Both the position numbers and the translations under genes were made by a program. Below are positions 4,336 through 24,485 of a DNA stretch of 64,000 bases, one piece after another. Position 1 is the first letter of the stretch. Every line of letters begins with the position of its first letter. The notes beneath the pieces are model-generated. The model searched no databases, had not been told where the DNA came from, and was given only the letters and a program-made list of their open reading frames with translations. The DNA comes from Sphingobium sp. AP49 (GTDB lineage: Bacteria > Pseudomonadota > Alphaproteobacteria > Sphingomonadales > Sphingomonadaceae). Location of the stretch: the NCBI RefSeq assembly GCF_000281715.2, contig NZ_CP124576.1, forward strand, positions 2,115,501-2,179,500, in the 5' to 3' direction.

Positions 4336-7300
4336 CTATATTATAAAGTGATGATCGCCTGGTCCCACGGTGCGCAGACCGTCAGGTAAAGCGATATCCG
4401 CCCTGCTATTTGCAGGCACCGTCAGCTCAAGCTTCACAGCGTTTGCCTGATAGGCCCATCGGGTCTCAATCAATCCCCTGACGCTGATCAGTTTCGTGCT
4501 TGCCTGTGGCACACGAGCGTCAAAGACGGGGGCAACGCGAAACCGCGCGAAGCCCGGTTCGACAGGTTCGATGCCGCCCACTCGCCGGTACAGGAAGCCG
4601 CAGACGGCACCCAGCGCATAGTGGTTGAAACTGTTCATCGCGACATCGCCGGTGTCGCCATTCCATCGCTCCCATATCGTCGTAGCGCCCTTGCGCGCCA
4701 TATAGCCCCAGGAAGGAAATTTCGTGCGCAGCAGCAGATCGAAAGCGAGCCGAGTTTCTCCCACATCGACCAGCGCATCGAGCGCCAGCGGCGTGCCAAG
4801 GAACCCCGTTGTGAGCAGCGTTCCACGCTTGCGAATATCTGCCGCCAAGAGCGAGGCGGCTTTCGCGCGAAGCGCCTGCGGAACCAGATTGAGCCGGAGC
4901 GCCAGAATATAACTGCATTGGCTGCCGTTTCCGACTCTTCCGTCATCACGAACAAAGGCCGATGCGAAAGCGCTGCGGATCCGATCATGATGCGCGCGCC
5001 AAGTTCCGGCCTCGTCAGCGCGGCCCGTCCATTCCGCCATCTGCGCAATCTGCTCCACGGAGCGAGCAAGCATGGCTGTAGCGATAAGCGCCTTGGGGGT
5101 CGTCTCGTCCATCGGCGACTTCGCATCGAGCGCGAGCCAGTCGCCAAGATCTGCTCCACGCCCTGTCGACCACAGGCCATCGGGGTTTTTTGCGATTATG
5201 CCCTGCGCATAAGCGGTCATCGCCTGCCAATTTTCGTCGACGATCGTGCGATCGCCGCTGTGCAGATAGGCGGTATAGGGGAGCATAACACCGGCATCGC
5301 CCCAGCCTGGGGTCGGGCTGTCGGTGCCCCAACCCAGCCCCTGCGGAGAAGGGGTCCAGAGTGGGTAGGCGCCATTGCTGGCCTGCGCGTCGCGCATCGT
5401 GCGGGAGAAGGCGCGGGTATAAGCCCCGACATCCATGTTGAAGCTGGCGGCATCCCAGAAAATCTGCGCGTCGCCGGTCCAGCCAAGCCGCTCGTCACGT
5501 TGCGGGCAATCGGTCGGAATTCCCATGAAGTTGGAGCGCTGGCTCCACAGCGTATTCAGCCAGAGCTTCTGGACGTCCGGATTGCTGATCTGAAACGTCC
5601 CAATTTCAGGCATGGCACTCGAAAGGACCAGGCCAGCGATCATGTCCGAAGTTAGCGTGCTGACCCCGCTGATCTCCGCATAACGAAAGCCCTGGTAACT
5701 GAAGACGGGTTCGAGCGTCTCCGATCCGTCTCCGCGCAACCAATAGCGATCTTCCGCCCTTGCCGCCCGCAGGTTTCGACGGTCGAGCTCGCCCTGCTCA
5801 GACAAGATTTCAGCATGGCGCACGGTGATCGGCTGCCCTGCAACGCCCTTGACCTGAAGCCGCACGCGACCCGCAAAATTCTGGCCGAAGTCGACAATAT
5901 GGCGTGCTTCGCCAAGCTTGCGAATGGTGACTGGCGGCAGTTGTCTGATGATGCGTACCGGCTCGGCAAGTGCCGCCGAAATCGGGGCAATTGGCGTCGG
6001 CGCCGTCCAGCACCGATCCCATTTGCTATCGTCGAAGTCCGGACGATCCCAGCCCTGGGACTGCGATCGCAAATCCTGGTCTTCGCCGGCGTAAATTTCC
6101 GACATCAATATGGGGGCGCGCGCGTGTCGCCATTGGCCGTCGGTGATGATCCGCTCGATCGAGCCGTCGGACCGGGTCAGTTCCAGCATCAATTGCAGTC
6201 GGCGGGGCGCACCGCCAAATGCATAGCGGCCGTCGGGCGCCTGGTAGCTCGCATAATAGCCATCGCCGATCACAGCACCGAGGCAGTTGGTGCCCTTTTG
6301 GATCAAATCGGTAACATCATAGGCGCGGTAGGGAATGCGAACGGCGTAATTGACAGGCTCTGCCTGCAGTTCATCGTCATTTACCCGGCGTCCGTTGAGC
6401 GACAGGCGATAGCCGCCAAGCGCTGCCGCATAGAGCCGGGCTTGGACAATCGCACTATCGTTGGAGAAGCTGCGCCGCAGCAATCTTGCCGGCGTGGGAG
6501 GCCAGGGGAAAATGGGCTGTGAATCCAGCAGCGGCGCCACCACCCAGTTTTCTGCCTCGCCAAGGCGGGTTTCCCAGCTGCCGCTCAACCGTTCGCTCGA
6601 GCCACTCAATGCAGGAAGACGGATCTGTCCGGCAATCGAGACGAATGGCTTGATGAAGAAGCCCGGTGCAGGCGCAATATCCAGGCTAAGCAGATGATCA
6701 CCGGCCGGGAGCTGCAAGGCGAGGCGTGTTGCAGGCGCGCCGCCAAAAGCATTGGGATCGCGCGCAGGCAAGGCGAGTGGTTTGCCGTCGAGCTCCAGCC
6801 GTGACATCACGCCATCGCCGAAGATGGACAGCAGCGCGTCGCCTGCATCGCTGCGAAAGGCCAGACGAAAGCTGCGCGGCTTGTCGGGCGCAGGGGCGTT
6901 GCCGCCTACCCATTGGACACCGCTGAGCCGGTCTTCGCGCTCGACGGCATCTTCGGCGGCCAGCCAGTCACCCGTCCAGTCCTTCGTCTCGAGAAGGCCC
7001 ATTTCCCAAGAGGCTGGGTCGCTCCAGCCGGTGTTGCCCTTTCCATTCCAGACCTGCACTTTCCAATGGCAGGTCTCGCGCGAGCGCAAGGGTCTGCCTT
7101 CATACCGGATGCCCGTGCAGGCGGAGCCTTTGATGCGCCCGCTGTCCCATATGTCGCCGACATTGCGTCCAAGCAAAGACGAACTGGACGCGACGAGAAT
7201 GCGATATGCCGACTGCATCGTCTCGTCAGGGCCAGTGATCTGCCAGGACAGGCTGGGATGCCGGTCGTCAATTCCGATCGGGTTCTTCCGCATGGCGGCA

Positions 7301-7410
7301 CGCAACTGGGTGGCGCCGAACCGCAGCGTCGATGCGGCTCGTGCCTGATTGGCGCTCAAGCCCAGAATTGCGCTGGTCGCCATGAAGGAACGACGATCGA
7401 ATATGGGCAT
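4336..7410 (-). CDS. GH78 alpha-L-rhamnosidase, Tat-exported
   Basis: The 1024-residue protein starts MPIFDRRSFMATSAILGLSA, a twin-arginine signal with likely cleavage after ARA near residue 26. It should act in the periplasm. The order is the GH78 one: N-terminal fibronectin-like and beta-sandwich modules, then an (alpha/alpha)6 barrel. DCPQRDERLGWTGDA at about 633-647 holds the predicted general acid Glu, and IWERWNGDTG near 910 the predicted general base. The family releases terminal alpha-L-rhamnose from plant glycosides such as rutin, naringin and hesperidin, or from polysaccharides. It is the third gene of a TonB receptor - GH1 - GH78 operon, 45 bp after the GH1 stop, with AAGGAAC before the ATG. 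Substrate is inferred from the neighbours. Confidence 0.92.
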   Translation of the reverse strand: MPIFDRRSFMATSAILGLSANQARAASTLRFGATQLRAAMRKNPIGIDDRHPSLSWQITGPDETMQSAYRILVASSSSLLGRNVGDIWDSGRIKGSACTGIRYEGRPLRSRETCHWKVQVWNGKGNTGWSDPASWEMGLLETKDWTGDWLAAEDAVEREDRLSGVQWVGGNAPAPDKPRSFRLAFRSDAGDALLSIFGDGVMSRLELDGKPLALPARDPNAFGGAPATRLALQLPAGDHLLSLDIAPAPGFFIKPFVSIAGQIRLPALSGSSERLSGSWETRLGEAENWVVAPLLDSQPIFPWPPTPARLLRRSFSNDSAIVQARLYAAALGGYRLSLNGRRVNDDELQAEPVNYAVRIPYRAYDVTDLIQKGTNCLGAVIGDGYYASYQAPDGRYAFGGAPRRLQLMLELTRSDGSIERIITDGQWRHARAPILMSEIYAGEDQDLRSQSQGWDRPDFDDSKWDRCWTAPTPIAPISAALAEPVRIIRQLPPVTIRKLGEARHIVDFGQNFAGRVRLQVKGVAGQPITVRHAEILSEQGELDRRNLRAARAEDRYWLRGDGSETLEPVFSYQGFRYAEISGVSTLTSDMIAGLVLSSAMPEIGTFQISNPDVQKLWLNTLWSQRSNFMGIPTDCPQRDERLGWTGDAQIFWDAASFNMDVGAYTRAFSRTMRDAQASNGAYPLWTPSPQGLGWGTDSPTPGWGDAGVMLPYTAYLHSGDRTIVDENWQAMTAYAQGIIAKNPDGLWSTGRGADLGDWLALDAKSPMDETTPKALIATAMLARSVEQIAQMAEWTGRADEAGTWRAHHDRIRSAFASAFVRDDGRVGNGSQCSYILALRLNLVPQALRAKAASLLAADIRKRGTLLTTGFLGTPLALDALVDVGETRLAFDLLLRTKFPSWGYMARKGATTIWERWNGDTGDVAMNSFNHYALGAVCGFLYRRVGGIEPVEPGFARFRVAPVFDARVPQASTKLISVRGLIETRWAYQANAVKLELTVPANSRADIALPDGLRTVGPGDHHFII

Positions 7411-7455
7411 GGGCAGTTCCTTGGAAAATCAATATGCGTCGGGCGAGGGAACGGG

Positions 7456-8763
7456 TCAGATACTGTTGTCTCGCGCGTACCGGCCAAGATGCAAGCCGCT
7501 TGGCTTCAATGTGCGGCGGAAGTTCGTCCTGTCGACAGCTACCAGCCCGAATTGCGCCGTATAGGCCCTGTTCCACTCGAAATTATCGAGCAGCGACCAA
7601 TGGATATAGCCGCGCACGTCCACGCCATCGGCGATCGCTCGCGAGAGACCCGCGAGCGCTCCGTCGATATAGGCGATCCTGCGGCCGTCATCGGCAGTCG
7701 CCACGCCATTTTCAGTGACGATGATCGGCCGCTTGGTGGCTTTGGAGACCCAGCGTACCGTGGCTTCGAGCGCCTGTGGATAGAATTCCATCTCGGTTTG
7801 CGTGAGTTCCGCGCCGGATGCGGGCGGCAAGTCGATATCATTGCCAACCACGGCTCGGCCATAGGTCTGGACACCCACGAAATCATCCTTGGCGACCGCG
7901 TCGAACCAGGGCGCATAGACCTCCGCAATCTTGCGTTCCAACCCGTTCGCGCCAGGAGCGGATTGTTCGTCAGCAACAGAGAGGCTCAGCCCCAATTGCA
8001 GATCGGGGCGCACGGACTTGATCGCCTCGATGGCTCGGCGATGAGCCTCCGCCTGTATTGGGCCGGCACGGCGGATGTCAAAAATCGGCGTCGATGAAAA
8101 GCGGTCACTGCCCACCGCCTTGGCGGCGGCTGCCGAAGCCTGGATGAAATATGGCATGGTTGCGCGAAAACCGGGCTGCCATGATAGTTGGGCGGCCAGA
8201 TTGGGCTCGTTGAAGGTAAGCCCATGACTATAGTTCGGACCCAGCGCCTTGGCAGCCCGCTCGCAAAAGCGCAGGAAATGATCGACATTGGCCTGCTCTT
8301 CCCACCCGCCCTTTGCTGCGAACCAGCGCGGGACGGTGAAGTGCGAGTAGGTGATGAAGGGCTTCAGGCCCAGCTCGACGCATCCATCCACCATACGGCG
8401 ATAATGGTCGAGTTCAGCGTTGGAATATTCTCCCTGCTCCGGTTCGATGCGCGACCATTCGATGCCGAAGCGATAGCAGTTGAGGCCCATCTGCTTGACG
8501 AGTGCCATGTCCTCACGCCAGCGATGATAGCTGTCGCAGGCGTCGCCGGAGGGCGCTGCAAAGCTGTTGGGCGTCAGATGCTCCATGACCCAGCTGTCGC
8601 TGTTGACATTATTGCCTTCCACTTGATGGGCGGCGGTGGCTGCCCCCCAGAGGAAGTCAGGACGCAGCTTGCGACGCGCGGCGAGCGCAGGACTGGCAAG
8701 CATCATCGCAAGACTCCCTCCGGCAAGCTGAAGCATGGAGCGGCGTGAGAGCGCAAAGGGCAT
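7456..8763 (-). CDS. GH1 family beta-glucosidase, Tat-exported
   Basis: A (beta/alpha)8 GH1 enzyme of about 435 residues. The N-terminus MPFALSRRSMLQLAGGSL is a twin-arginine signal cleaved near SPALAA. DFLWGAATAAHQVEGN is the standard first strand; TFNEP near residue 187 carries the acid/base Glu and VTENG near 350 the nucleophile; HWSLLDNFEW forms the aglycone-site strand. An upstream ATG at 8772 lies only two bases after the TonB stop and directly on the GAGG, so the ATG at 8763, nine bases from GAGG, is preferred. With GH78 in the same operon it would remove glucose after rhamnose from rutinose- or neohesperidose-type glycosides; that pairing is inference. Confidence 0.9.
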   Translation of the reverse strand: MPFALSRRSMLQLAGGSLAMMLASPALAARRKLRPDFLWGAATAAHQVEGNNVNSDSWVMEHLTPNSFAAPSGDACDSYHRWREDMALVKQMGLNCYRFGIEWSRIEPEQGEYSNAELDHYRRMVDGCVELGLKPFITYSHFTVPRWFAAKGGWEEQANVDHFLRFCERAAKALGPNYSHGLTFNEPNLAAQLSWQPGFRATMPYFIQASAAAAKAVGSDRFSSTPIFDIRRAGPIQAEAHRRAIEAIKSVRPDLQLGLSLSVADEQSAPGANGLERKIAEVYAPWFDAVAKDDFVGVQTYGRAVVGNDIDLPPASGAELTQTEMEFYPQALEATVRWVSKATKRPIIVTENGVATADDGRRIAYIDGALAGLSRAIADGVDVRGYIHWSLLDNFEWNRAYTAQFGLVAVDRTNFRRTLKPSGLHLGRYARDNSI

Positions 8764-8774
8764 ATCATCCATCC

Positions 8775-11102
8775 TCAGAACCGGAACTGAATGTTGGCGC
8801 CGATGGTGCGTACGGAATCGAACCCGAATTGCTGCTGATAGGTGGCGACGCCGGAGATCGCGTCGCCGGAATCCAGCCCGATGAAGTTGGGATTATATTC
8901 GTTCGTGCAATTCTTGCAGAAGATCGACAGGCGCATGCCATTATCGATCCGCACGCCTGCGCTCGCCCCGATCAGATCGGTCGTCGGCACAGTGGCGCCT
9001 GGGGCCTGATTGATGAGGTAATTGATCGGGGTCCGATGGTACCAGTTGCCCTCGATGAAGGGATGCATGGTCCCGTCCGTCTGGAACTCGTAGCTGGCCT
9101 GGAGGGACGAAGTGAATTTCGGCGCGGTCGGCGTGCGCTTGCCGCCGGCGTTGAACGAACCGCTTGTTGCGCAGCTGGCGTCGGCTTGACCCGGATAGCA
9201 TTCGGCGCCCGCAAAATCCTTGAACTTGGAGCTGAGGAAGGTCGCCGACCCGTTGATCGAGAGCCCACGGAACGGGTTGGCATTGACGGTCAGCTCGACG
9301 CCTTTGCTGATGACCGATGCCGCGTTCTGGACCACGAAGCTCTGCAGCTGGGTGTCGAGCGACTGGGTCTGGTAATTCTTGAACTTCGTATGAAAGAGTG
9401 ATGCGTTGACCACGAGATGGCGATTGAACCAGCTCGTCTTGGCGCCGATTTCGGCGGTGTTCGATTTTTCCGGCTTGACCAGCAGCGAGGTCGTTGCGGT
9501 TGCGCCGGTGTCATTGAAACCGGGGCCCTTATAGCCGCGACCATAGGAGGCATAGATCATCGCATCGCGCGCCACCTGATATTGGCCGCCCGTGCGCCAG
9601 CTGAAATCGGTATGGCCATAGGATTGCGCAATTTCGCCGGGCACGCCGAGGGTCACAAAATAGGCACCGCGATTCTGGTCAAGATCGATGCTGATTTCGT
9701 CGCGCGTGACGCGGCCGCCGGCGAAGAGCTTCAGCGCGTCCGTCAGGGCATAGGTCAACTGCCCGAATGCAGCATAGCTGTCGGTCTTCATCCGATAGCG
9801 ATTGTCCCGCCCGAGGAAATAATCATTGCTGACCGAGCAGGTGGGAGGAAAGGCGCCGGGCACTGCAGCTGCGCCGACGCAGAAGGGGAATGTCGGCAGC
9901 AGGAAGTCGGGCAGATAATTATTGCCGGCAATCTGGCTGCGCTGATCGATCGTCGAATGGAAATAATAGAGGCCGGCCTGTCCCGTCAGGCGGTTTCCGG
10001 CCGGCAGGGCCACGCGCAGTTCGTTCGAAAACTGATCATAGTCGGCATGGGAATAGTTGATGTTCGCGCCGTTGCTGTTGGTGAAGTCGGTATCGAGCTG
10101 GGCGTCGAAATTATAGAATTTCCAGGCAAAGATATTGCTCACGACGAGGCCACTGTCTGCGGTGTAGGAGAGCGAAGCCTGGGCGCCGCCCAGCTTCAGG
10201 TCACGCCAATATCCGCCGTCGCCCGCGAAGGTGAAATTCTTGTCGCCTGGAACGATGCCAGATGCTGCAAGCGGGGCTGCATTGACACTTCCCTCGCCAA
10301 GCTCGCGATAGGTGCGGTCATAGATGCCCGCGACACCGTGAGATTCGGCATATTCGCCGATGACATAAAGCTCGAGCTCAGGCGTGATCTCCTGGAGATA
10401 TTTGGCGCGGACCCCATATTGCTTGCGATCCAGGTCGTTGCGGACACCGCCGGTACCGACGAAATTGGTGCCAGGCTCTTCCACGGAATAGGTTCCGTTG
10501 ATCCGCAATGCTGCGGTGTCGCCGACAGGAATATTGACCGTCTGTCGCGCAATCACGGACCAGGCCTCCGCATCGCTGCCCGGCGTGCTGCGATTGTTGA
10601 GCTCCAGGTTGGTCTCGCTGCCGAAACTGCCGAGCTTGGGACGGGTCGATACGACGTTTAGAAGTCCTGCCGAGGCATTTTTGCCAAAGAGAAGCCCTTG
10701 CGGCCCGTTCAGCACCTCGACCCGTTCGACGTCGTTGAAAAGTCCCTGGGCAAGGAATGGCCGGCCCAGATTGACGTCGTCGAGTGCGGTCGCCACGCTG
10801 GAATCGATCGTGGTCGCAAAGGCCTGCGTCCCGACCCCGCGAATGGCAAAGCTGTTGTCATTGCCGACCTGTAGGCTGGGCGCCGCCAGCGCGACTTGGC
10901 TCAAATCATTGAGGTTGCGCGATTTGAGCGTGTCGCCGCCAAGCGCCGTCACGCTCACCGGGACATCCTGAAGCCGTTCGGCGCGACGCTGCGCGGTCAC
11001 GACAATGTCGGTCACGCCCTCGTTCTGAGCGGTTTCCTGTGCATAGGCTGTATGGGCGACGGAGATCAGGCTCGCGCCAACAAACAATAGTGCCTTCCGC
11101 AT
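8775..11102 (-). CDS. TonB-dependent outer-membrane receptor
   Basis: The 775-residue protein starts MRKALLFVGASLISVAHTAY with a Sec signal ending AYAQ, followed by the TonB-box-like DIVVTAQRR. A plug domain (FAIRGVGTQAF, RVEVLNGPQGLLFGKNASAG) and a beta-barrel ending in NIQFRF follow. The start at 11102 has GGGAGGATGAA just upstream; longer in-frame extension is untranslated leader. It belongs to the large sphingomonad class used for plant oligosaccharides and aromatic glycosides rather than classic siderophores. It leads the operon with GH1 (2 bp gap) and GH78, and lies divergent from a TetR gene. The most likely role is import of the glycoside the two hydrolases act on. Confidence 0.9.
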   Translation of the reverse strand: MRKALLFVGASLISVAHTAYAQETAQNEGVTDIVVTAQRRAERLQDVPVSVTALGGDTLKSRNLNDLSQVALAAPSLQVGNDNSFAIRGVGTQAFATTIDSSVATALDDVNLGRPFLAQGLFNDVERVEVLNGPQGLLFGKNASAGLLNVVSTRPKLGSFGSETNLELNNRSTPGSDAEAWSVIARQTVNIPVGDTAALRINGTYSVEEPGTNFVGTGGVRNDLDRKQYGVRAKYLQEITPELELYVIGEYAESHGVAGIYDRTYRELGEGSVNAAPLAASGIVPGDKNFTFAGDGGYWRDLKLGGAQASLSYTADSGLVVSNIFAWKFYNFDAQLDTDFTNSNGANINYSHADYDQFSNELRVALPAGNRLTGQAGLYYFHSTIDQRSQIAGNNYLPDFLLPTFPFCVGAAAVPGAFPPTCSVSNDYFLGRDNRYRMKTDSYAAFGQLTYALTDALKLFAGGRVTRDEISIDLDQNRGAYFVTLGVPGEIAQSYGHTDFSWRTGGQYQVARDAMIYASYGRGYKGPGFNDTGATATTSLLVKPEKSNTAEIGAKTSWFNRHLVVNASLFHTKFKNYQTQSLDTQLQSFVVQNAASVISKGVELTVNANPFRGLSINGSATFLSSKFKDFAGAECYPGQADASCATSGSFNAGGKRTPTAPKFTSSLQASYEFQTDGTMHPFIEGNWYHRTPINYLINQAPGATVPTTDLIGASAGVRIDNGMRLSIFCKNCTNEYNPNFIGLDSGDAISGVATYQQQFGFDSVRTIGANIQFRF

Positions 11103-14070: not shown

Positions 14071-14986
14071 AGGCCGCCTCAGCGCAAATCGAGGCGAACA
14101 CCGAAGCAATCAGCGCCTCAAGGCTTTCGTCGGCCCGGAAGCCGGCCTTGGTCGCTGATGGCGTTACAAGAGCGGGCTGGGATCCGAACAGGCACTGAAG
14201 CTCAGGATCGGGCGCATGAACGACCTGCGTCGGGTCTGAAAACAGTTGTTGGACCAGCTGTCCGATGGTGACATGCAGAGCCGGGCAGGTCAGGCTTATG
14301 CCGTCCTCGATGTCGCAATGAAGCGCATGGATCAGGTTCAAGGCTGCCCGCCGCGCAGACAATATCCAGATGCTGGCATCTGCCGATACGGGCAAAGTCA
14401 TCGGCCGCTGTTCCAGCGCCGCGTGGAAGAGGTCGCTCATGAAAGCAGAGGCGAGACCGCTTGGACCCATGGGGCGAGCAACGATACCTGGCAGGCGCAG
14501 CCCGACAGCTTTGATGCTCCCTCGACGAGCGAATTGCGTCAGTGCGATCTCGATCATGCGCTTATGTGCGCCATAAAGGGTGGCCGGCGCGGGCACCGTC
14601 TCATCATCGACGGGTGAAGGCGTCGGCCCCAATATCGCAATCGAGCTGGCATAGACGAAGCGGCACGGGCGCTTGGCCTGGTCCATCTGCTCGAGGATGG
14701 CGAGCGGGGCATCGACATTGATGCGGCGAGCAAATCCGGGCGTCTGCTCCGTCGCGCCTCCAGGAACGGCGGCGAGATGGATGACGCGGTCGACCCCTTC
14801 GAGCAATGCGTCGAGATGCTCCGTGGTGGCCAGGTCGAAAGCGACGGCTTCAAATCCGCTGCCGATCGGTATGGGGGGCGCAGTTAGATCCGTCAGCCTG
14901 ACAGCGCCATAGCCACCCTCATCGGCCAACAGGCGCGCCACTTGGCGGCCGACAAAACCGGATGCCCCGGTAACCAGCAGGGTCAT
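14057..14986 (-). CDS. NAD(P)-dependent epimerase/dehydrogenase (extended SDR)
   Basis: The product is 309 residues. MTLLVTGASGFVGRQVARLL carries the Rossmann GxxGxxG; VIHLAAVPGG is the expected beta-4 segment; SSIAILG gives the catalytic Ser and YGAHK the Tyr-x-x-x-Lys pair. The closest family I can name from memory is the D-erythronate dehydrogenase / UDP-sugar epimerase-like group, so a sugar-acid dehydrogenase is possible but not proven. The ATG overlaps the stop of the cupin gene (ATGA at 14986-14983), indicating translational coupling. It is the last gene of the TonB receptor - cupin - dehydrogenase set. Confidence 0.82.
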   Translation of the reverse strand: MTLLVTGASGFVGRQVARLLADEGGYGAVRLTDLTAPPIPIGSGFEAVAFDLATTEHLDALLEGVDRVIHLAAVPGGATEQTPGFARRINVDAPLAILEQMDQAKRPCRFVYASSIAILGPTPSPVDDETVPAPATLYGAHKRMIEIALTQFARRGSIKAVGLRLPGIVARPMGPSGLASAFMSDLFHAALEQRPMTLPVSADASIWILSARRAALNLIHALHCDIEDGISLTCPALHVTIGQLVQQLFSDPTQVVHAPDPELQCLFGSQPALVTPSATKAGFRADESLEALIASVFASICAEAASIAL

Positions 14987-15537
14987 GCCAGATCGTCGTC
15001 GAGGACGCCGTCGATGAGGATGAAGGCGATCCGGCAAGGTGCGCCGGAACGGTTGATCCAGCCATGATTGGTGCCACGCTGAATGATGATGTCGCCGGCA
15101 TGGGCAACGGTCTCGCCCTCGTCCATCATCAATGTGATGCTGCCCGAGAGCAGGATGCCGTAATCGATCGAACGGGTCCGATGGAAACTGGCATGCCGAT
15201 CGGATGTCTTGCCGACATGCGCGTCGCTGCCGCCGATCGCATCGAACACGGCATCGAAATCCGCCCCGGCTTGCTCCGGCGGGATGTCCAGGACACGGAT
15301 GCGTGTCCCGCCCGGCGGCGGCGCCAACAGCAGATGCGTTTCTGCAGGTTCGGCGTCGTTCCGGTCAAGGATGGCGGGTGTCTGCCTGGTGTTCCAGACT
15401 TCGTGGAACACCAGGCCCTCCTCCCCCAGATTGTCGAAAACCCGGACCGGGGGCGCATCGCTGGCGATGCGCGATCGTCGATCTGCATCATGGCCGGTTA
15501 CGATACGACGGAAAGATGTGCCGGGTTCTGTACCCAT
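14983..15537 (-). CDS. Cupin-domain protein
   Basis: The 184-residue protein has one clear cupin barrel in its C-terminal half: FHRTRSIDYGILLSGSITLM (motif 1 with a single His and a Tyr-Gly strand), GDIIIQRGTNHGWINRSG (motif 2 with His), then CRIAFILIDGV. The N-terminal 90 residues (FRRIVTGHDADRRSRIASDA onward) look like the extra strand pairing seen in this family. The start at 15537 has AGGAG six bases upstream. Cupins of this type bind a metal and act on small polar or aromatic compounds, as isomerases, dioxygenases or sensors; the reaction is not predictable. It is coupled to the dehydrogenase by ATGA overlap and lies 58 bp after the TonB receptor. Confidence 0.8.
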   Translation of the reverse strand: MGTEPGTSFRRIVTGHDADRRSRIASDAPPVRVFDNLGEEGLVFHEVWNTRQTPAILDRNDAEPAETHLLLAPPPGGTRIRVLDIPPEQAGADFDAVFDAIGGSDAHVGKTSDRHASFHRTRSIDYGILLSGSITLMMDEGETVAHAGDIIIQRGTNHGWINRSGAPCRIAFILIDGVLDDDLA

Positions 15538-15595: not shown

Positions 15596-17878
15596 CTAGA
15601 AGCGGAAACCGGCGCGCACGCCATAGGTGCGGGGCGGCCTCAGCTGATTGTAAATGACGCCGGGCTTCGCCGGACTCTGCAGCGAATTGGCAAACACCAG
15701 CTCATTCTCGATATTGTTGATGAAGCCGGTCAGGGAGAAATTGCCCGACGGGCTTTCATAGGTGAGCCGCGCATTGGACATCATGTAGGAGCCCTGCCGC
15801 CCCAGCTCGAGGAAATCGAGCGAGAGATAGCGGGACGTTTCGATCCGCGTATCAGCTGCCGCAATCAGCTTGCCATGATCGCCGAGTTGGAAGCTATGTT
15901 CATAGCCCAGATTGAACACCCACCTGGGCGCGTTGACCAGCGGTCGACCCGAACAATCCACATCATAGATGCGGGCGGCCGGTGAGGCACCGGTCTGGCT
16001 CGTGGGCGTCACCGTGCAGCCGATGACCGGCGCCGTGCCGGTCGTCGAATAGGCCTGATAGGTCAGCTCATCATATTTGCTGTGCAGATACTGAATATTG
16101 GCCGAAAATTGGTCATTGCTCGTCGGCTGGAACAGCGCCTCCAGTTCAAGACCGTAGATGGTCGACTTACCCGCATTTTCCGTGGTGAAGACCGGGCCGT
16201 AGATCGCGCCCGCCGGCGTGCTTGCAACCTGGACTGGACCAAGATGCGAGATCTGCTGGTCTTTATATTTCCAGAGGAACGCTTCCGCGTTCAACTGGAC
16301 CTTGTTGTCGAAGAAGCGATTCTTCGAGCCGATCGTATAGGCCGTCATATTCTCGGGCGCTGAATAGTTGCGCCCTGTCGCCGCAAACAGCGCGCCCGAT
16401 TTGAAGCCGGTGGCAACCGATGCGTAGAGCAGCGATCGCGGTCCGACGTCATACTCCACGCCCGCCTTCCATGTGACCTTGTTGAAATCCACGTCGGTAC
16501 GCGGATAGCTGACGATATCGAGGATGATCGGGGTGAAGTTGCCCTGCGCGGGATTGACGAAACCGACGAAGGGAAGCGTATGCGCCTCGGTTGCCTGGCG
16601 TTTTGCATCGGTTGTGTAACGCAGCCCGCCTGTCAGCCGGAATCTGTCGGTTACCGAAAAAGTCGCCTGACCGAAGGCCGCGAGGCTTTCGGTTTCCAGT
16701 TCCGAGTTGATCCGGGTGCCATTGCTGGCCTGGTCGAATAGCTGCCGGGCGCTCACATCTTCGGCGAAATAATAGCCGCCAACGACCCATTCGAGGGGGC
16801 CGTTATGCCCGCCCAGTCGGGTCTCGAGTGACATCTGGCTCGACTTTTCCTGGACGTCGATCAGGAAACTCGAGGCATAGGAGCGAAAGTCGAGATCCGT
16901 CTTGCGATAGGCGGGAATGACGGTGAGCGTTGCAAAGCCAAGATCGGCATTGAGCGTCAGCGCTGCGCCGAAGAAGTCATTGTCCTGATAGCCATCATCG
17001 CTGGCGATCGCCTGCGGGACCGGCGGCGTTGGCGAACGGGACACATAAGCCGCAATGACACGCGGATCGCTGGGGCCGAGCCGATGCTTTCCATCGAGCA
17101 GCGGCATGATCGTGCCGCCGGAACCCATGCCGCCCACATGCGCATAATCGACCGAAAGGGTGGCGTCGAAACCGGTGCCGGTCTCGCCACGCAATTGGGC
17201 GCGAACAGCCTGGCTATCCTCGTCATCATAGCCATCGCTGTAATAGCCGTCGCGCTTCACATATTGCCCCGCGATACGGAAGGCGAGCTTCTCACCCAGG
17301 GGCAGGTTGAGCGCGGCCGAACCCTTGATGGCATCGTAATTGCCATATTCCGCGTTGATATATCCCGACGTCTCCCCAAGCTTGGGCTTGGCGGTGATGA
17401 CGTTGACGGCGCCGCCGGTGGCGTTGCGACCATAAAGGGTGCCCTGAGGCCCTTTGAGCACCTCGACGCGTTCGAGATCATAGAAGAGGCCGGCAGGTGC
17501 GGCGGGACGGGACAGATAGACCCCATCGAGATTGAAGGCGACGCCCTGCTCTGCAAAGGCATTGGCGCCAAAAGTGCCGACGCCGCGCAGATAGATCTGG
17601 GTGAAGGAAGCCGCAGGCGCCACCTGGAGCGCGGGCACGACCCGGGTGAGATCATTGGCCTGGGTGATGCTCTGCTGAACGAGCGTATCGCCGGCCACTG
17701 CGCTGACGGCTATCGCCGCCTTCTGCAAATTCTCGCTACGCCGCTGCGCTGTAACGATGATGTCGGCGATGCCGGATGCCTCGGCCTGCGCCGCCTCGCC
17801 GTTGGCCTGCTCCTGGACCAAGGCCGGCGTAACCGGGATCAATATCGCTGCAGCTGTCGCTAGTAGGGCCGCCTTCAT
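15596..17878 (-). CDS. TonB-dependent outer-membrane receptor
   Basis: The 760-residue protein starts MKAALLATAAAILIPVTPAL, a signal peptide followed by DIIVTAQRR (TonB box). The plug has IYLRGVGTFGANAF and ERVEVLKGPQGTLYGRNATG; the barrel ends VRAGFRF. The start at 17878 follows GAGAGGATTCAGGC. It is distinct from the receptor at 8775-11102 but of the same broad class (VFNLDGVYLSRPAAPAGLFY-like plug typical of sphingomonad aromatic and oligosaccharide receptors). It heads the set with the cupin and SDR genes and is divergent from a LysR gene, suggesting LysR-controlled uptake of a second substrate or of the aglycone. Confidence 0.9.
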   Translation of the reverse strand: MKAALLATAAAILIPVTPALVQEQANGEAAQAEASGIADIIVTAQRRSENLQKAAIAVSAVAGDTLVQQSITQANDLTRVVPALQVAPAASFTQIYLRGVGTFGANAFAEQGVAFNLDGVYLSRPAAPAGLFYDLERVEVLKGPQGTLYGRNATGGAVNVITAKPKLGETSGYINAEYGNYDAIKGSAALNLPLGEKLAFRIAGQYVKRDGYYSDGYDDEDSQAVRAQLRGETGTGFDATLSVDYAHVGGMGSGGTIMPLLDGKHRLGPSDPRVIAAYVSRSPTPPVPQAIASDDGYQDNDFFGAALTLNADLGFATLTVIPAYRKTDLDFRSYASSFLIDVQEKSSQMSLETRLGGHNGPLEWVVGGYYFAEDVSARQLFDQASNGTRINSELETESLAAFGQATFSVTDRFRLTGGLRYTTDAKRQATEAHTLPFVGFVNPAQGNFTPIILDIVSYPRTDVDFNKVTWKAGVEYDVGPRSLLYASVATGFKSGALFAATGRNYSAPENMTAYTIGSKNRFFDNKVQLNAEAFLWKYKDQQISHLGPVQVASTPAGAIYGPVFTTENAGKSTIYGLELEALFQPTSNDQFSANIQYLHSKYDELTYQAYSTTGTAPVIGCTVTPTSQTGASPAARIYDVDCSGRPLVNAPRWVFNLGYEHSFQLGDHGKLIAAADTRIETSRYLSLDFLELGRQGSYMMSNARLTYESPSGNFSLTGFINNIENELVFANSLQSPAKPGVIYNQLRPPRTYGVRAGFRF

Positions 17879-18998: not shown

Positions 18999-20114
18999 TT
19001 GGAAGCGCAGCGCATATTGGTCATTGGCGGTGGTATCGGGGGCCTGACGGCTGCGATTGCTCTCCGCGCCAAGGGGCACCAGGTAGATGTGATCGAGCGG
19101 GATCCCGACTGGTCTGTCTATGGCGTCGGCATCATCCAGCAGTCCAACGTCGTTCGCGCGATGGCGCAACTTGGCCTGCTGGACGATTATCTGTCTGCCG
19201 GAGTCGGCTTCGACGCGATCGAGATATTCCTTCCCAACGGGACGAAGATTGCCCGCGTGCCCTCGCCCCGGCTGGTCGAAGGGAAGCCCGCCAATGTCGG
19301 CATCGGTCGCCCAGCTCTCCACAAGGTGCTGGGCGACCGTACGCTGTCCAGCGGCGCGACCGTCCGTCTGGGCGTAACAGCCGAGCGCATCGTCGACGGA
19401 GCCGACTGCGTGACTGTCGATTTCTCCGATGGCAGCAGCGAGCGCTACGACCTGGTTGTGGGCGCGGACGGAGTCTATTCGCAGACGCGCGACCTCATTT
19501 TTCCCGATGCCCCCAAGCCCCAGTTCACCGGCCAGTCGGTATGGCGTTACAATTTCGCGCGCCCCGCAGGGCTGGATGCGCTGCAAGTCTATAACGGCCC
19601 AATCGGCGTTGGTCTCGTGCCCATCTCGGACGCGCTCATGTACATGTATGCGACCACGCCCGAGCCCGACAATCCGCGCTATCCGCTCGAGGGGCTGGCA
19701 GCGGTCATGCGTGCCAAGCTTTCGGGGACCGCGCCAGCCATTCAGGCGCTGGCGCAAGAGATCACACAAGATAGCGCTGTAGTCTATCGCCCGCTCGAAG
19801 GCCTGCTGGTCGAAGGGCCATGGCACAAGGGCAGGATCGTCCTGCTGGGAGACGCAGTCCACGCGACCACGCCGCATCTGGGGCAGGGCGCGGGTATGGC
19901 GATCGAAGACAGCCTGGTCCTGGCCGATGAACTCTCCAAACATGATGATCTGGAGAGCGTTTTTGAAGCCTATCATGCCCGCCGGTTCGAGCGGTGCGCC
20001 TATATCGTTCGGGCCAGCCTCGCCATCTGCCACGGTCAGATCGGCAAGGGGCCGCCTGTCGATAACGCGGCCGCCACCCATGAAATGTTCGAGATGATCG
20101 CCGAGCCGATCTGA
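18999..20114 (+). CDS. FAD-dependent aromatic monooxygenase
   Basis: The 371-residue protein is a group A flavin hydroxylase. GGGIGG at residues 10-15 binds the FAD ADP moiety; VVGADGVYSQTR is the DG motif; GRIVLLGDAVHATTPHLGQG near 278-297 is the GD motif contacting the ribityl chain. Such enzymes use NAD(P)H and O2 to put a hydroxyl group ortho or para to an existing phenol. The start is TTG at 18999, with GAGAGGA upstream; no nearby ATG gives the first beta strand. It leads the operon, so it should carry out the activating hydroxylation before the extradiol-type dioxygenase. The analogous step in the Herbaspirillum naringenin (fde) pathway is FdeE; this is functional analogy, not shown orthology. 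Confidence 0.88.
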   Translation: MEAQRILVIGGGIGGLTAAIALRAKGHQVDVIERDPDWSVYGVGIIQQSNVVRAMAQLGLLDDYLSAGVGFDAIEIFLPNGTKIARVPSPRLVEGKPANVGIGRPALHKVLGDRTLSSGATVRLGVTAERIVDGADCVTVDFSDGSSERYDLVVGADGVYSQTRDLIFPDAPKPQFTGQSVWRYNFARPAGLDALQVYNGPIGVGLVPISDALMYMYATTPEPDNPRYPLEGLAAVMRAKLSGTAPAIQALAQEITQDSAVVYRPLEGLLVEGPWHKGRIVLLGDAVHATTPHLGQGAGMAIEDSLVLADELSKHDDLESVFEAYHARRFERCAYIVRASLAICHGQIGKGPPVDNAAATHEMFEMIAEPI

Positions 20115-20157: not shown

Positions 20158-21060
20158 ATGAGCCGCGTTTCTGAAATTCGCTATGTCGGCTACGGCGTGC
20201 CCGACCTGGCCACCGAGCGGACCTTTTACGCCGATCAGTGGAAGCTGGTCGACGTAGGCGAGCAGGATGGCATGGTCCATTTTGCGGCCGATGGCGGCGA
20301 AGAGGCCTATGTCGTGCGCCTGCGCGAGAATGAAGATCGTCGCGTTGACGTGATCGCTCTTGCCGCTGAAAGCCAGGCCGATGTCGATGCGCTTCATGGC
20401 AAGGTGGTCGCCGCAGGCTGCCGGATTATCTTTCCACCTCGCAACCTAGCCACATTCGCGGGCGGCTATGGTTTTCGCTTCTTCTCGCTAGACGGCCTGC
20501 CATTCGAGATTTCCAGTGATGTCGAGCGGCGTACCGCACGAACGCTCAGCCGTTGGGACGGCATCCCACAGAAAATCAGTCACATCGTCCTCCATTCGCC
20601 CGATCATCAAGCTCTGGTCCGCTTCTTCGTCGACGTGTTGGGGTTCAAGATCAGCGACTGGCTGGGCGACTTCATGTGCTTCCTGCGCTGCAATGCAGCT
20701 CATCACCGGCTGGCCATCCTCCCGGGGCCTCCCTGTCTCAACCATGTCGCCTACGACATGCTGAGCGTCGACGACATGATGGTCGGCATCAACCGACTGC
20801 GCCAGAAGGGCACCGACATTCGTTGGGGTCCGGGCCGGCACACTGCGGGCAACAACACCTTCAGCTATTTCACGACGCCCACCGGCTTCGCCGTCGAATA
20901 CACTTCTGAACTGGAGGATGTCGATTTCGAGTCACATGAGCCACAGGTCCATGTGCCCGGCCCCAAGGTGATGGATCAGTGGGGCATCGGCACCGGCGGT
21001 CCTCAGACCATGCCACATCCCGAGGCCGACAAGGGCCTCTTCCAGCCGGTAGAGGCCTGA
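20158..21060 (+). CDS. Extradiol-type ring-cleavage dioxygenase (VOC superfamily)
   Basis: The 300-residue protein contains two vicinal-oxygen-chelate modules, as in type I extradiol dioxygenases. The C-terminal module has the 2-His-1-carboxylate iron site in the right places: H142 (HIVLHSPDH), H196 (LNHVAYDML) and E247 (FAVEYTSELE). The family opens catechol-type rings next to the diol. AAGGAG precedes the ATG. It directly follows the flavin hydroxylase, which would create the diol, and precedes the C-C hydrolase that would process the product. The exact substrate cannot be read from sequence; a flavonoid A ring or another acylated polyphenol is the working guess. Confidence 0.87.
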   Translation: MSRVSEIRYVGYGVPDLATERTFYADQWKLVDVGEQDGMVHFAADGGEEAYVVRLRENEDRRVDVIALAAESQADVDALHGKVVAAGCRIIFPPRNLATFAGGYGFRFFSLDGLPFEISSDVERRTARTLSRWDGIPQKISHIVLHSPDHQALVRFFVDVLGFKISDWLGDFMCFLRCNAAHHRLAILPGPPCLNHVAYDMLSVDDMMVGINRLRQKGTDIRWGPGRHTAGNNTFSYFTTPTGFAVEYTSELEDVDFESHEPQVHVPGPKVMDQWGIGTGGPQTMPHPEADKGLFQPVEA

Positions 21061-21063: not shown

Positions 21064-22221
21064 ATGGCGCTGTTCGAATATTTCCCCAACTATATCTGGA
21101 ATCTCTCGATTTCGATCGCGATGGAGTCGGGCGCCCAACTCGGCGAAATCATCGACATGTGTCAGCCGATCCGGGATGCTGCCAATAGCGGCGCCGACGC
21201 CGGCACGCCCCAGTTCATGAAGGCCTGGGCGGCGATGGGCGACAAGCTGCTGGAACTAGCGGGAGAAGATGAAGCCAAAGGGCGCTATTTCTCCGCCTCG
21301 AACAAGCTGGAGCGGGCATCGCTCTATCTGATCACGGCCGAACGGATGCAGGGTCATGGCGCGCCCGGACGCGAGGCGACCTATGCCAAGGCGCGAGCGG
21401 CCTTCGACCGGTCGACCGCGCTTGGCCAGATCAATCGCGAGCGGGTGGAAATTCCGCTCGAGACCGGAACCATGCCTGCGCTTTTCACCCGTGCGCCCGG
21501 GGACGGCAGGAAGCCGGTAGTGGTGTTCTGCAATGGGCTCGATAGCTGCAAGGAGTTGCTTTACTGGAGCCGGCTCCCGGAAGAACTGGCTCGCCGGGGC
21601 ATATCTACCCTATGTGTGGATCAGCCCGGATCGGGCGAGGCGCTGCGACTGCAAGGTCTGCCTGTCGATCCGCATAGCGAAAGCTGGGCCAGCAAGGCCG
21701 TCGACTGGCTCGAGCAACAGCCCGAAGTCGACCCAAAAGCGATCGGCATGACCGGCATCTCGCTGGGGGGGCATTTTGCGCCACGCGCGGTCGCCTATGA
21801 GCCGCGCTTTGCCAGTGGCGCGGTCTGGGGGGCCAACCATAATTGGCGTGAGGTGCAGGACAAGCGCATGTCTCGCGAAGGGGAGAATCCGGTTCCCCAT
21901 TATTGGGCGCATGTCCATTGGGCGTTCGGTGCCAGCGATCAGGAGGACTTCCTGGCGAAATCGCAAGCCATGAATCTCAATGGCCATATGGACCGCATTG
22001 AGGTGCCATTCCTCGTCACCCATGGCGGAGACGATCGGCAGATCAGCGTCTCCTACGCAGATGATCTCTATGATCAGCTGATCAATTCACCTCGCCGTGA
22101 GAAGGTCATTTTCACTGCGCGAGAAGGCGGCGTCGAGCATGTCGGCGCCGACAATATGGCCTATGGCCGCGACCTCATCTCGGACTGGTTCGCCGAGACG
22201 CTGGGTGAGCACGCCCGATAA
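21064..22221 (+). CDS. Alpha/beta hydrolase, DHPON hydrolase/FrsA-like, probable C-C bond hydrolase
   Basis: The 385-residue protein has a long helical N-terminal cap (about 1-130), then a hydrolase core: VVVFCNGLDSCKEL (oxyanion region), GMTGISLGGHFAPR with nucleophile near Ser233, VTHGGDDRQIS with the acid near 322, and GGVEHVG with His near 359. The cap-plus-core layout matches 2,6-dihydroxypseudooxynicotine hydrolase and FrsA-like enzymes, which split C-C bonds of aryl ketones or diketones. The gene starts 3 bp after the dioxygenase stop, so it likely hydrolyses the ring-fission product or an acyl side chain in the cytoplasm. Confidence 0.82.
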   Translation: MALFEYFPNYIWNLSISIAMESGAQLGEIIDMCQPIRDAANSGADAGTPQFMKAWAAMGDKLLELAGEDEAKGRYFSASNKLERASLYLITAERMQGHGAPGREATYAKARAAFDRSTALGQINRERVEIPLETGTMPALFTRAPGDGRKPVVVFCNGLDSCKELLYWSRLPEELARRGISTLCVDQPGSGEALRLQGLPVDPHSESWASKAVDWLEQQPEVDPKAIGMTGISLGGHFAPRAVAYEPRFASGAVWGANHNWREVQDKRMSREGENPVPHYWAHVHWAFGASDQEDFLAKSQAMNLNGHMDRIEVPFLVTHGGDDRQISVSYADDLYDQLINSPRREKVIFTAREGGVEHVGADNMAYGRDLISDWFAETLGEHAR

Positions 22222-22688
22222 TGACAGAGGTTGCGGTCATCAACGCCTATATCCGCAGGGAGACGCGCATCAGCATGGCAATCAACGCCTTGTTGTCGCT
22301 GGTGATCTTCTTTGCGGTGTTCGGAATCGGCCGGCCGGTGGAAAGCTGGGGCGTCGGGCAATGGGTGTTCGATTTTCTTCCGCAGAGCTTCATGATCGCC
22401 TTGATGAGCGTTCTCATTCCTGGTGCGCTCGCCCGACAAAAGCTCAAAAATGGGACGCTGGCGCCTGGTCCTCATCGCTCGGTCCTTCCGCGCAATCTGC
22501 TGGTGCGCGCACTAATCCTGGCGGGATTATCGGCTAGCATCGGCACAGCTTTGGTTGCCGGATTGGTCTGGATGACGGGTATGGCGACGATCGCCCCAAT
22601 CCCTGCTCTGCTCTTCAAGACGACCTATGGTGCCATTCTCGCCCTGATCGTCACGCCTCCCGCTCTTCGCGCGGCTTTGGCCGCATGA
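22221..22688 (+). CDS. Small four-helix membrane protein of unknown function
   Basis: The 155-residue protein overlaps the hydrolase stop by one base (TAATG at 22219-22223) and therefore belongs to the operon. I see four hydrophobic helices: about 20-40, 50-70, 93-118 and 125-150. A basic loop RQKLKNGTLAPGPHRSVLPR sits between helices 2 and 3. No catalytic or binding motif is recognisable. It is too short for a classical transporter and resembles DUF2798-like two- or four-helix proteins only in general plan. A role in substrate entry, efflux or membrane anchoring of the pathway is possible but unsupported. Confidence 0.75.
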   Translation: MTEVAVINAYIRRETRISMAINALLSLVIFFAVFGIGRPVESWGVGQWVFDFLPQSFMIALMSVLIPGALARQKLKNGTLAPGPHRSVLPRNLLVRALILAGLSASIGTALVAGLVWMTGMATIAPIPALLFKTTYGAILALIVTPPALRAALAA

Positions 22689-22722
22689 TTTCATCATATC
22701 CCGTATTTCAAGGAATGCCCCG

Positions 22723-23514
22723 ATGACCCGCCGTTTCGTCGATCTGTCGATCACGCTCGACAATGATGTGGTTTCCGATCCGCCGTTTCTTCGGCCCAAA
22801 ATAACCTATCAGGCGCATGGTGAAACCGTCGCCGAGCTCCAGCATTTTTTCCCTGGCGTGACGGCGGAAGACACGCCTGATGGCGCGGGTTTCGCCGCCG
22901 CGGAATGGGTGACGCTCACGACCCATAACGGCACGCATCTGGACGCGCCCTATCATTTCCATCCCACCATGGATGGCCGCGACGGCGAACCGCAACGCTC
23001 GATCACGATCGACGAAGTGCCGCTGGAATGGTGTTTCCAGCCCGGCGTGAAGCTCGACTTCCGCCATTTCCCCGATGGCTATGTCGCCACCGCAGCCGAT
23101 GTCGAGGCCGAACTGGCCCGTCTCGGCCACAGCCTCCAGCCGCTCGACATCGTCCTGGTCAACACGGCCGCCGGCACGGCGCTGGGGCAGCCCGACTTTG
23201 TCAATCGCGGCTGCGGCATGGGCTATGAGGCGACCATCTATCTGACCGAGCGGGGCGTGCGCGTCACCGGCACCGATGCCTGGTCCTGGGATGCGCCGTT
23301 CAGCTACACTGCGCAGAAGGTCAAGGAGACCGGCGACACCTCACTGATCTGGGAAGGGCACAAGGCCGGCCGCGACATCGGCTATTGCCACCTGGAAAAG
23401 CTGCACAATCTGGAAAGCCTGCCCGGCTATGGCTTCATGGTCAGCTGCTTCCCGCACAAGATCAAGGGCGCGTCAGCCGGCTGGACCCGCGCGGTCGCAA
23501 TCTTCGAGGAATAG
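22723..23514 (+). CDS. Cyclase-family metal hydrolase (kynurenine formamidase/isatin hydrolase fold)
   Basis: The 263-residue protein has the family signature HNGTHLDAPYHFH at 68-80, which binds the metal (HxGTHxDxPxH). It starts with RRFVDLSITLDNDV, the usual first strand. Members hydrolyse amide, lactam or lactone-like bonds in small ring compounds. AAGGA precedes the ATG. In this operon, between the C-C hydrolase and the FAH-family enzyme, it most likely opens a lactone or acts on an enol/keto intermediate. The FAH gene begins two bases after its stop, indicating tight coupling. Confidence 0.85.
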   Translation: MTRRFVDLSITLDNDVVSDPPFLRPKITYQAHGETVAELQHFFPGVTAEDTPDGAGFAAAEWVTLTTHNGTHLDAPYHFHPTMDGRDGEPQRSITIDEVPLEWCFQPGVKLDFRHFPDGYVATAADVEAELARLGHSLQPLDIVLVNTAAGTALGQPDFVNRGCGMGYEATIYLTERGVRVTGTDAWSWDAPFSYTAQKVKETGDTSLIWEGHKAGRDIGYCHLEKLHNLESLPGYGFMVSCFPHKIKGASAGWTRAVAIFEE

Positions 23515-23516
23515 AG

Positions 23517-24485
23517 ATGCGCCTCGCCACTCTCAGCAATGGTCAGCCGGACGGCTGCCTGATCCTCGTCTCCCGCGATGCCTGTCGTTACCTGTCTGCA
23601 GTGGGCATTACGAACACGCTGCAGCAGGCGATCGAGCAATGGGACAGCGTCGAGCCGGCGCTGCGCCAGCTTGCCGACCGACTGGAACAGGGGGACGGCG
23701 ATGTGCTGGACGAAAGCCGCCTGCTCGCGCCTCTGCCTCGTGCCTGGCAATGGCTCGATGGTTCCGCTTTCCCGCAGCATGGCGAACTGATGCAGAAGGC
23801 GTTCAACCTGCCGCCGATCGAGACCGACCGGCCGCTCATGTATCAGGGCCTGTCCGACCGCTTCCTGTCCGGAACGCAGGATGTGGTACTTCCCAGCGAA
23901 GCTGACGGCATCGATTTCGAGGGCGAGTTCGGCATCATTACCGATGCCGTGCCGATGGGCACCAGCGCGCAGGACGCTCTGCCCCATATCAAGCTGGTCC
24001 TGCTCATCAACGACTGGTCGCTGCGCGCGATCGCACCGATCGAGATGAAGACCGGGTTTGGCTGGGTCCAGGCCAAGCCCGCCTGCTCTGTCGCGCCCTT
24101 TGCGGTCACGCCCGATGAACTGGGCGACGCATGGCAGGACGGTCGCGTCCATCTGCCGCTGCAGGTGCACGTCAACGATGTCTGGTTCGGAAATCCCCAT
24201 GGCGGCGAAATGGCGTTCGGCTTCCATGAACTGGTCGCCCACGCCGCCCGCACCCGCGATCTGGTCGCTGGAACCATCCTTGGCTCTGGAACGGTATCAA
24301 ACGCCAATTTTGAAGAGGTTGGTTCCTGCTGCGTGTCGGAACGACGCGCCATCGAGATGATCGAAAAAGGTGAACCTCAAACCCCCTTCCTGAGCTTCGG
24401 TGATCACGTTTCGCTCGGCGTAGCTGGGAACAACAGATCCGTTTTTGGCAACATCAACCAACAGATCATTGCCGCAAATTTCTGA
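23517..24485 (+). CDS. Fumarylacetoacetate hydrolase-family protein
   Basis: The 322-residue protein has the FAH core: FEGEFGIITD with metal ligands near E135/E137, LINDWSLRAI, then VNDVWFGNPHGGEMAFGFHE and GTILGSGTVSN. Length and KTGFGWVQAKPACSVAPFAV fit bacterial fumarylpyruvate/acylpyruvate hydrolase-like members, which cleave C-C bonds of diketo acids using Mg2+. The ATG at 23517 is fixed by GAGGA upstream and by its position two bases after the cyclase stop; longer in-frame extension lies within the cyclase gene. As the last gene of the ring-cleavage operon it would release central metabolites such as pyruvate or oxaloacetate; that is inference. Confidence 0.87.
   Translation: MRLATLSNGQPDGCLILVSRDACRYLSAVGITNTLQQAIEQWDSVEPALRQLADRLEQGDGDVLDESRLLAPLPRAWQWLDGSAFPQHGELMQKAFNLPPIETDRPLMYQGLSDRFLSGTQDVVLPSEADGIDFEGEFGIITDAVPMGTSAQDALPHIKLVLLINDWSLRAIAPIEMKTGFGWVQAKPACSVAPFAVTPDELGDAWQDGRVHLPLQVHVNDVWFGNPHGGEMAFGFHELVAHAARTRDLVAGTILGSGTVSNANFEEVGSCCVSERRAIEMIEKGEPQTPFLSFGDHVSLGVAGNNRSVFGNINQQIIAANF

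Follow-up and report, generated by a model that had tools for sequence, protein, structure and literature searches.

What does a bacterium need in one place to live on plant flavonoids as the plant supplies them? These compounds mostly occur as glycosides; the genes for A-ring degradation of the fde and ifc (isoflavone catabolism) pathways, as described in the literature consulted, start from the aglycone. A locus of Sphingobium sp. AP49 raises this question. It occupies positions 4336 to 24485 of the window, by which we mean the whole stretch of 64,000 nucleotides analysed (contig NZ_CP124576.1, positions 2,115,501 to 2,179,500). Judged from its sequence, the locus probably serves the utilisation of rhamnosyl-glucosylated flavonoids of the rutin, naringin and hesperidin kind, a reading that a first-pass annotation had put forward and that is right in outline. 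The best label for it is a modular version of the established fde pathway, linked to TonB receptors and combined with an O-rhamnoglucosidase module. Three observations carry this reading, namely the gene content, the homology to the fde operon layout and the conserved linkage of the two parts. The genes are as follows, with identities in amino acids (aa) to the genes of Herbaspirillum sp. ASV7.

4336-7410, minus strand: GH78 alpha-L-rhamnosidase with a Tat-type (twin-arginine) signal; five GH78 Pfam domains over cut-off, best solved relative 3w5m
7456-8772, minus strand: GH1 glycosidase, probable beta-glucosidase, with a Tat-type signal; PF00232
8775-11102 (re-estimated; long frame to 11261), minus strand: TonB-dependent receptor 1 (TonB1), head of the glycosidase operon; PF00593/PF07715
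11289-11942, plus strand: TetR-family regulator, divergent from the TonB1-GH1-GH78 operon; PF00440
11970-13061, minus strand: Rieske non-haem oxygenase of the VanA/dicamba O-demethylase type, possible O-demethylase; PF19112 VanA_C, PF00355
13126-14070, plus strand: LysR regulator 1 (LysR1), divergent from the Rieske gene; PF00126/PF03466
14057-14986 (re-estimated; long frame to 15037), minus strand: NAD-dependent epimerase/dehydrogenase, FdeJ counterpart; 39% over 323 aa to ASV7 J
14983-15537 (re-estimated; long frame to 15624), minus strand: cupin-domain protein, FdeH counterpart; PF07883, 46% to ASV7 H
15596-17878 (re-estimated; long frame to 18055), minus strand: TonB-dependent receptor 2 (TonB2), divergent from LysR2; PF00593/PF07715
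18003-18917, plus strand: LysR regulator 2 (LysR2), FdeR-like; 38% over 292 aa to ASV7 R
18999-20114, plus strand: FAD monooxygenase, candidate FdeE-like flavonoid A-ring hydroxylase; PRK06847 over cut-off
20158-21060, plus strand: extradiol ring-cleavage dioxygenase with the VOC fold, of a lineage other than that of FdeC and presumably its functional counterpart; PF00903
21064-22221, plus strand: alpha/beta C-C hydrolase of the DHPON-hydrolase type, FdeB counterpart; 51% over 385 aa to ASV7 B
22221-22688, plus strand: small membrane protein with four hydrophobic segments by hydropathy
22723-23514, plus strand: cyclase-family hydrolase, FdeG counterpart; PF04199, 77% over 259 aa to ASV7 G
23517-24485 (re-estimated; long frame from 23385), plus strand: FAH-family hydrolase, FdeI counterpart; PF01557, PF18288, 53% over 328 aa to ASV7 I

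How closely does the ring-cleavage core resemble the fde operon? H. seropedicae was not in the best 80 of 512 loci used from a scan of relatives in named genomes, and the comparison was run through the ASV7 locus (L110), which is among them. Here a divergent regulator R is followed by ten genes in the order A to J (R-ABCDEFGHIJ), matching the ten open reading frames given for the published fde operon (PMC9422121); fdeR is reported to adjoin fdeA (PMC10799723). The window holds counterparts of the R regulator and of six of these ten genes (B, E, G, H, I and J), with identities of 77% for the cyclase (G), 53% for the FAH-family hydrolase (I), 51% for the C-C hydrolase (B), 46% for the cupin (H), 42% for the FAD enzyme (E) and 39% for the epimerase (J). 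Both LysR proteins are related to the regulator in the FdeR position, LysR2 at 38% and LysR1 at 32%, and LysR2 is 37.5% identical to the R protein of Burkholderia anthina. The identity of the cyclase and of the two hydrolases points to the same ring-opened intermediates. The C-C hydrolase, already called DHPON hydrolase-like at first pass, also matches the DHPON hydrolase 2jbw (3.3e-14) and carries a GISLGG motif. Plasmid records were searched with the dioxygenase protein (391 matched, 60 of them used); on a B. anthina plasmid a LysR gene precedes ten genes and an EthD gene, of which the Diaphorobacter and Azospirillum records are subsets. The same core occurs in S. yanoikuyae pKN1, Sphingobium TomTYG65, N. 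resinovorum pHR1a, Sphingomonas sp. R1 and N. pentaromativorans pLA3, some genes being missing or replaced in these sphingomonad loci.

Do the two oxygenases group with those of the fde pathway? From H. seropedicae we retrieved three proteins that share 85% identity with ASV7 E, and one of them (P0125) we take to be FdeE (D8J0W9). The window hydroxylase aligns with P0125 at 41% over 374 aa (295 bits, blastp) and reaches at most 110 bits (phmmer) with enzymes of solved structure, the best of which include a flavoprotein monooxygenase and 6-hydroxynicotinate 3-monooxygenase. On these scores a placement in unrelated phenol pathways was set aside for the hydroxylase; the dioxygenase, at 68-83 bits with FdeC types and 68 bits with BphC, speaks neither way, so that the expected grouping of the oxygenases stands for the first enzyme only. 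Both the window hydroxylase and P0125 possess the GxGxxG and GDAxHxxxPxxxxG motifs and lack the F motif, which is the signature reported for FdeE (PMC11303751), and the window hydroxylase is the one PRK06847 match over cut-off in the genome. A tree was built of 51 flavin monooxygenases, a selection from 133 distinct sequences. In it the sphingomonad group with the window hydroxylase was supported at 99/99, a 100/97 branch separated off the FDE rows along with three ungrouped ones, and five of six paralogues were set apart at 100/100, the sixth forming a very long branch. The tree thus places the window hydroxylase in the neighbourhood of FdeE, without proving FdeE to be its nearest characterised kin.

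The dioxygenase is a relative of PDB 3b59 (1.7e-145), and its nearest named counterparts among the matches listed are from S. yanoikuyae (95%). The alignments indicate that it is of the same superfamily as FdeC and of a separate lineage. H142, H196 and E247, which we take from the BphC family to be the metal ligands of the 2-His-1-Glu site predicted at first pass, are invariant in all seven aligned dioxygenases and are candidates for this role.

Are the glycosidases of the kind that rhamnosyl-glucosides would demand, and do they belong with the core? Alignment of GH78 with 3w5m matches up two motifs, RDERLGWTGD (from 638) and TTIWERW (from 910), whose glutamates are presumably the acid and base. 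The nearest solved relative of the GH1 protein is 6ier, 'beta-glucosidase 1317' (411 bits); the window GH1 has the NEP and TENG motifs, and its match to the NCBIfam BGL equivalog, at 247 bits, lies under the cut-off of 478.5. The predicted Tat export of both agrees with twin-arginine N-termini in the two window proteins and in all the relatives inspected (GH78 6/6, GH1 5/5). Linkage was surveyed in 94 genomes of the genus, the window's own included, taking as close a GH78 of at least 60% identity and as linked a core cyclase within 20 kb. Eleven close GH78 loci were found in ten genomes, all eleven with GH1 beside GH78 and nine with the cyclase; counted by genome, nine of the ten carriers, the window's own among them, show the linkage, which bears out the co-conservation proposed at first pass. 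None of 15 distant GH78 genes (<50%) was linked to a cyclase, six of these being in genomes without a cyclase match. A long layout, TonB1-GH1-GH78 / TetR / Rieske / LysR1 / TonB2, is found in the window, G022 and G018, and without cupin and epimerase in G014, G033 and G856; in a compact layout GH1-GH78 lies directly downstream of TonB2 (G036 and G873:C76), G001 being without a close TonB2. TetR stands beside the glycosidase module in G022, G018, G856, G014, G033, G847 and G873:C58. These loci are not independent because of shared descent, and a binomial figure is for this reason not read as a probability; the two layouts argue that the linkage has been kept through rearrangement. G871 carries a 54% GH78 19 kb from a cyclase, with no GH1 match beside it.

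A broader proposition, that any GH78 travels with this core, was rejected on family-wide GH78 neighbourhoods devoid of the core. Eighteen of 397 family genomes matched, the window's own included, and the surroundings of all but one (G283:C6) of the 18 other GH78 places were examined. No relative of the window GH1 was found in the 11-20 kb around these 17 places, nor any core gene except five weak FAH-fold matches (22-27%) at five loci; one place had TonB matches of 28-32%.

What accompanies the core where GH78 does not? We searched 19-40 kb at each of 26 cyclase loci of at least 80% identity, nine weaker rows being dropped and the GH78 of G871 falling outside the stretch used. Nine loci carry GH78 and GH1, another nine carry oxidative deglycosylation genes (two of them the GMC gene only, and one two genes only) and eight carry neither. 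None has both modules in the searched stretch, a 25% GMC match in G873:C76 being disregarded. In TomTYG65 the oxidative genes encode a GMC oxidoreductase, a Gfo/Idh oxidoreductase, two xylose-isomerase-like TIM barrels and a protein matching PF19906, the C-glycoside deglycosidase beta subunit, at 4.3e-33; PF19906 relatives occur at six of the 26 loci, and L013, L192, L231 and others are examples of sphingomonad loci with such a relative beside the core. C-glycoside deglycosylation systems are reported to act on flavonoid C-glycosides, and one of them on carminic acid, a non-flavonoid (PMC12724307). The presence of a second, chemically different sugar-removal system beside the same core, which the first-pass annotation had passed over, supports flavonoid-like glycosides as the substrate class.

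With the balance tipping slightly in its favour, it is tempting to speculate that sphingomonads combine a common flavonoid A-ring-cleavage core with alternative sugar-removal modules, locus by locus and in analogy to polysaccharide utilisation loci, so that intact glycosides would be imported and consumed. By the same narrow preference, the module would be a TonB-linked rhamnosidase/glucosidase for O-rhamnoglucosides in the window and an oxidative C-glycoside-deglycosylase at sister loci. As a separate observation, L140, L143, L200, L229 and L231 show no FAD hydroxylase match in the fetched stretch and have a luciferase-like monooxygenase (PF00296 in L013) beside the core, which may substitute for the hydroxylase in those five loci.

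A number of observations weigh against assigning the whole locus to flavonoid rhamnoglucosides, and they concern both of its parts. On the side of the core, a search confined to the 16 window proteins found no match to FdeA, FdeD or FdeF, and because of this the locus is regarded as a variant of fde and not as a strict member; FdeD may be dispensable, since purified FdeE was reported active (PMC11303751). The dioxygenase was rejected as an FdeC orthologue, for it matches ASV7 C at 32% over only 124 aa and FdeC itself only remotely by hhalign (probability 98.7, 242 columns, 25% identity). The hydroxylase tree does not settle how the window group, the FDE side, the three single rows and the paralogues join, and in it five other sphingomonad hydroxylases (L016, L150, L151, L194 and one of L228) attach to the FDE side at 97/100. 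Disrupting the DHPON-like hydrolase gene of ifc is reported to have left daidzein degradation in Variovorax unaffected (PMC11069340), which suggests that the DHPON-type step may be dispensable or late. On a rival reading, the substrate of the core would be no true flavonoid but some other polyhydroxylated aromatic glycoside that shares the A-ring pattern, for instance a dihydrochalcone, a xanthone, a chromone or an acylphloroglucinol: 41% identity cannot fix the substrate of a hydroxylase, the lineage of the dioxygenase differs from that of FdeC, the C-C hydrolase has a further relative in a fungal pigment protein ('yellowish-green 1-like'), and carminic acid is served by one of the known C-glycoside systems (PMC12724307). 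We consider this improbable, given the kinship of the cyclase and the hydrolases to those of an fde-layout operon and the fact that FdeE is reported to take flavanones, flavones, isoflavones and flavonols (PMC11303751).

On the side of the glycosidases, the specificity of GH78 and GH1, the sugar linkage and the aglycone class cannot be read from sequence. The core is wider than the module, with a cyclase in 27 of the 94 genomes and a close GH78 in 10; 17 of the 26 core loci lack GH78 in the searched stretch, and in pKN1, with a core at 80-99% identity, neither GH78 nor GH1 is matched over the fetched 40.9 kb. The GH78 module of G847 lies on the same contig as the core at a distance of 508 kb, and the contig that carries the G873:C58 module shows no cyclase match. 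GH78 is split into two reading-frame pieces in G856 and G873:C76, and G033 (L185, L186; G033:C5:2896001-2931000) has lost the flavin gene and most of the VOC gene and kept the glycosidases and hydrolases. The cores without GH78, in pKN1 and at the 17 loci, and the distance in G847, together with the receptor and TetR that the GH78 operon has of its own, and with a Sphingobium GH78 from tomato roots reported to have putative activity on steroidal saponins (PMC10653915), could mean that the core handles free flavonoid aglycones and that GH78, GH1 and TonB1 serve another rhamnose-capped compound, a saponin or an oligosaccharide, adjoining the core through plant-associated life. Such an arrangement is unlikely, although less so than the non-flavonoid substrates considered above, since nine of the 11 close GH78 loci are linked to the core, the linkage taking two forms, in one of which GH1-GH78 stands directly behind TonB2, and since nine of the 26 core loci carry the other sugar-removal module in place of GH78. 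Utilisation of flavonoid rhamnoglucosides remains the more probable reading.

Where does the locus stand among named systems? With fde it shares, besides the counterpart genes and an FdeR-like LysR, the logic of a flavin hydroxylase followed by an extradiol dioxygenase. It differs in the VOC lineage of the latter, in the lack of the Rieske ferredoxin FdeD, of FdeA and of the MFS protein FdeF, in the addition of TonB receptors, adjoining glycosidases and a Rieske oxygenase, and in the division of its genes into two divergent units around LysR2. The ifc genes of Variovorax sp. V35 resemble it in an FAD 8-hydroxylase, a glyoxalase-type dioxygenase, a DHPON-like hydrolase and cupins; however, IfcB is 65.8% identical to FdeC, to which the window dioxygenase is only remotely related, and the excerpt of the ifc report makes no mention of glycosidases (PMC11069340). 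The sphingomonad TonB-FAD-VOC-hydrolase-cyclase-FAH clusters of pKN1, pHR1a and pLA3 have the same core genes in the same order as the window, the conserved order that the first-pass annotation had proposed to look for in other sphingomonads; they show no GH78 or GH1 match in the fetched stretches and are annotated by family only. Relatives of CarABC/PurABC/DgpABC, compared by family (GMC oxidoreductase, PF19906 subunit, TIM-barrel proteins), occur at the sister loci; none was found beside the window's own core, which has O-glycoside hydrolases instead. Among the papers listed in searches of the open literature, none describes an fde-type cluster combined with glycosidases in a sphingomonad.

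How might the proteins act together? Import, all catalytic steps and the exact substrate are inferred here from family and gene order. TonB receptor 1 would carry the glycoside across the outer membrane, the Tat-exported GH78 would remove the terminal rhamnose and the Tat-exported GH1 the glucose, and the aglycone would enter the cytoplasm, where the Rieske enzyme may take off an O-methyl group. The FdeE-like flavin enzyme would then hydroxylate the A ring (at position 8 in FdeE and IfcA) and the VOC dioxygenase would open the hydroxylated ring, leaving the ring-opened product to be broken down by the DHPON-type hydrolase, the cyclase-family hydrolase, the cupin, the FAH hydrolase and the epimerase/dehydrogenase. 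LysR2, divergent from TonB2-cupin-epimerase and co-directional with the hydroxylase operon, is the probable flavonoid sensor.

How secure are the genes themselves? They were checked by long open frames and by Pfam and NCBIfam matches. Each gene named at first pass lies in a long open frame, and a family match exists for every one of them except the small membrane protein; their coordinates held up overall, except that the long frames of both TonB receptors and of the FAH-family hydrolase begin too early (the likely starts being near 11102, 17878 and 23517). In TonB receptor 1, whose stop lies 3 bp from the GH1 start, a signal-like stretch has its first residue at Met54, counted on the long frame, pointing to the start near 11102; in TonB receptor 2 it begins at Met60, the pKN1 homologue (96%) measuring 2283 bp. 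The alignment with ASV7 I begins at Met45 of the long FAH frame and that with ASV7 J at residue 18 of the long epimerase frame, the epimerase and cupin genes of pKN1 having 930 bp and 555 bp, respectively. The conserved membrane protein (155 aa, no Pfam or NCBIfam match) has homologues in the same position in pKN1 (80%), L014 (52%) and L204 (54%). 'NodD-like', the label once given to the two LysR proteins, was not borne out, the best NCBIfam matches of both being BsrA and LeuO, under cut-off. The Rieske oxygenase, whose best solved relative is dicamba O-demethylase (2.5e-52), the epimerase and the cupin had been omitted; the last two belong to the pathway and extend the fde gene set.

Could the neighbourhood be fortuitous? 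The window sits in a 4.5-Mb single-contig genome, with a GC (guanine plus cytosine) content of 0.60-0.61 over the locus, 0.60-0.63 at 32-44 kb and 0.64-0.67 beyond 44 kb. Given this profile and the fact that no tRNA was found in the window, no island is called. A chance assembly of unrelated catabolic genes in an accessory region might be read from the left side of the window, where a group II intron match and a frame-split receptor lie; the gene-by-gene correspondence to one known operon and the linkage conserved across species reduce it to a negligible probability. The intron match (Rfam group-II-D1D4-4, catalytic; 684-816, plus strand; 102 bits, gathering 49) has beside it a frame (41-505) matching part of a LysR substrate domain only, and the TonB-dependent receptor at 939-2702 (plus strand), extending over two frames (plug 939-1646, barrel 1662-2702), looks decayed. 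Elsewhere, the genome holds matches over cut-off to PRK15440 (768 bits, cut-off 393), presumably the L-rhamnonate dehydratase of rhamnose use, and to pbenz_hydroxyl, a 4-hydroxybenzoate hydroxylase (635 bits, cut-off 538.7) that might serve a B-ring acid; both are permissive and not diagnostic. Apart from the locus, a PhyH-type dioxygenase gene is directly followed by an amino-acid-kinase/ACT (aspartokinase-like) gene (27726-30085, plus strand), an odd pair that could be part of a small-molecule biosynthetic cluster, and a second GH1 gene adjoins a GH31 gene (58154-61997, minus strand) in an apparently separate sugar-use region.

A locus uniting uptake, deglycosylation and ring cleavage would open the use of flavonoid glycosides in plant-associated sphingomonads to direct test, and is a source of candidate 8-hydroxylases and rhamnosidases. 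An operon that is widespread in sphingomonads, and so far annotated by family alone, would gain a function, and the two alternative sugar modules would predict which glycosides each strain can eat.

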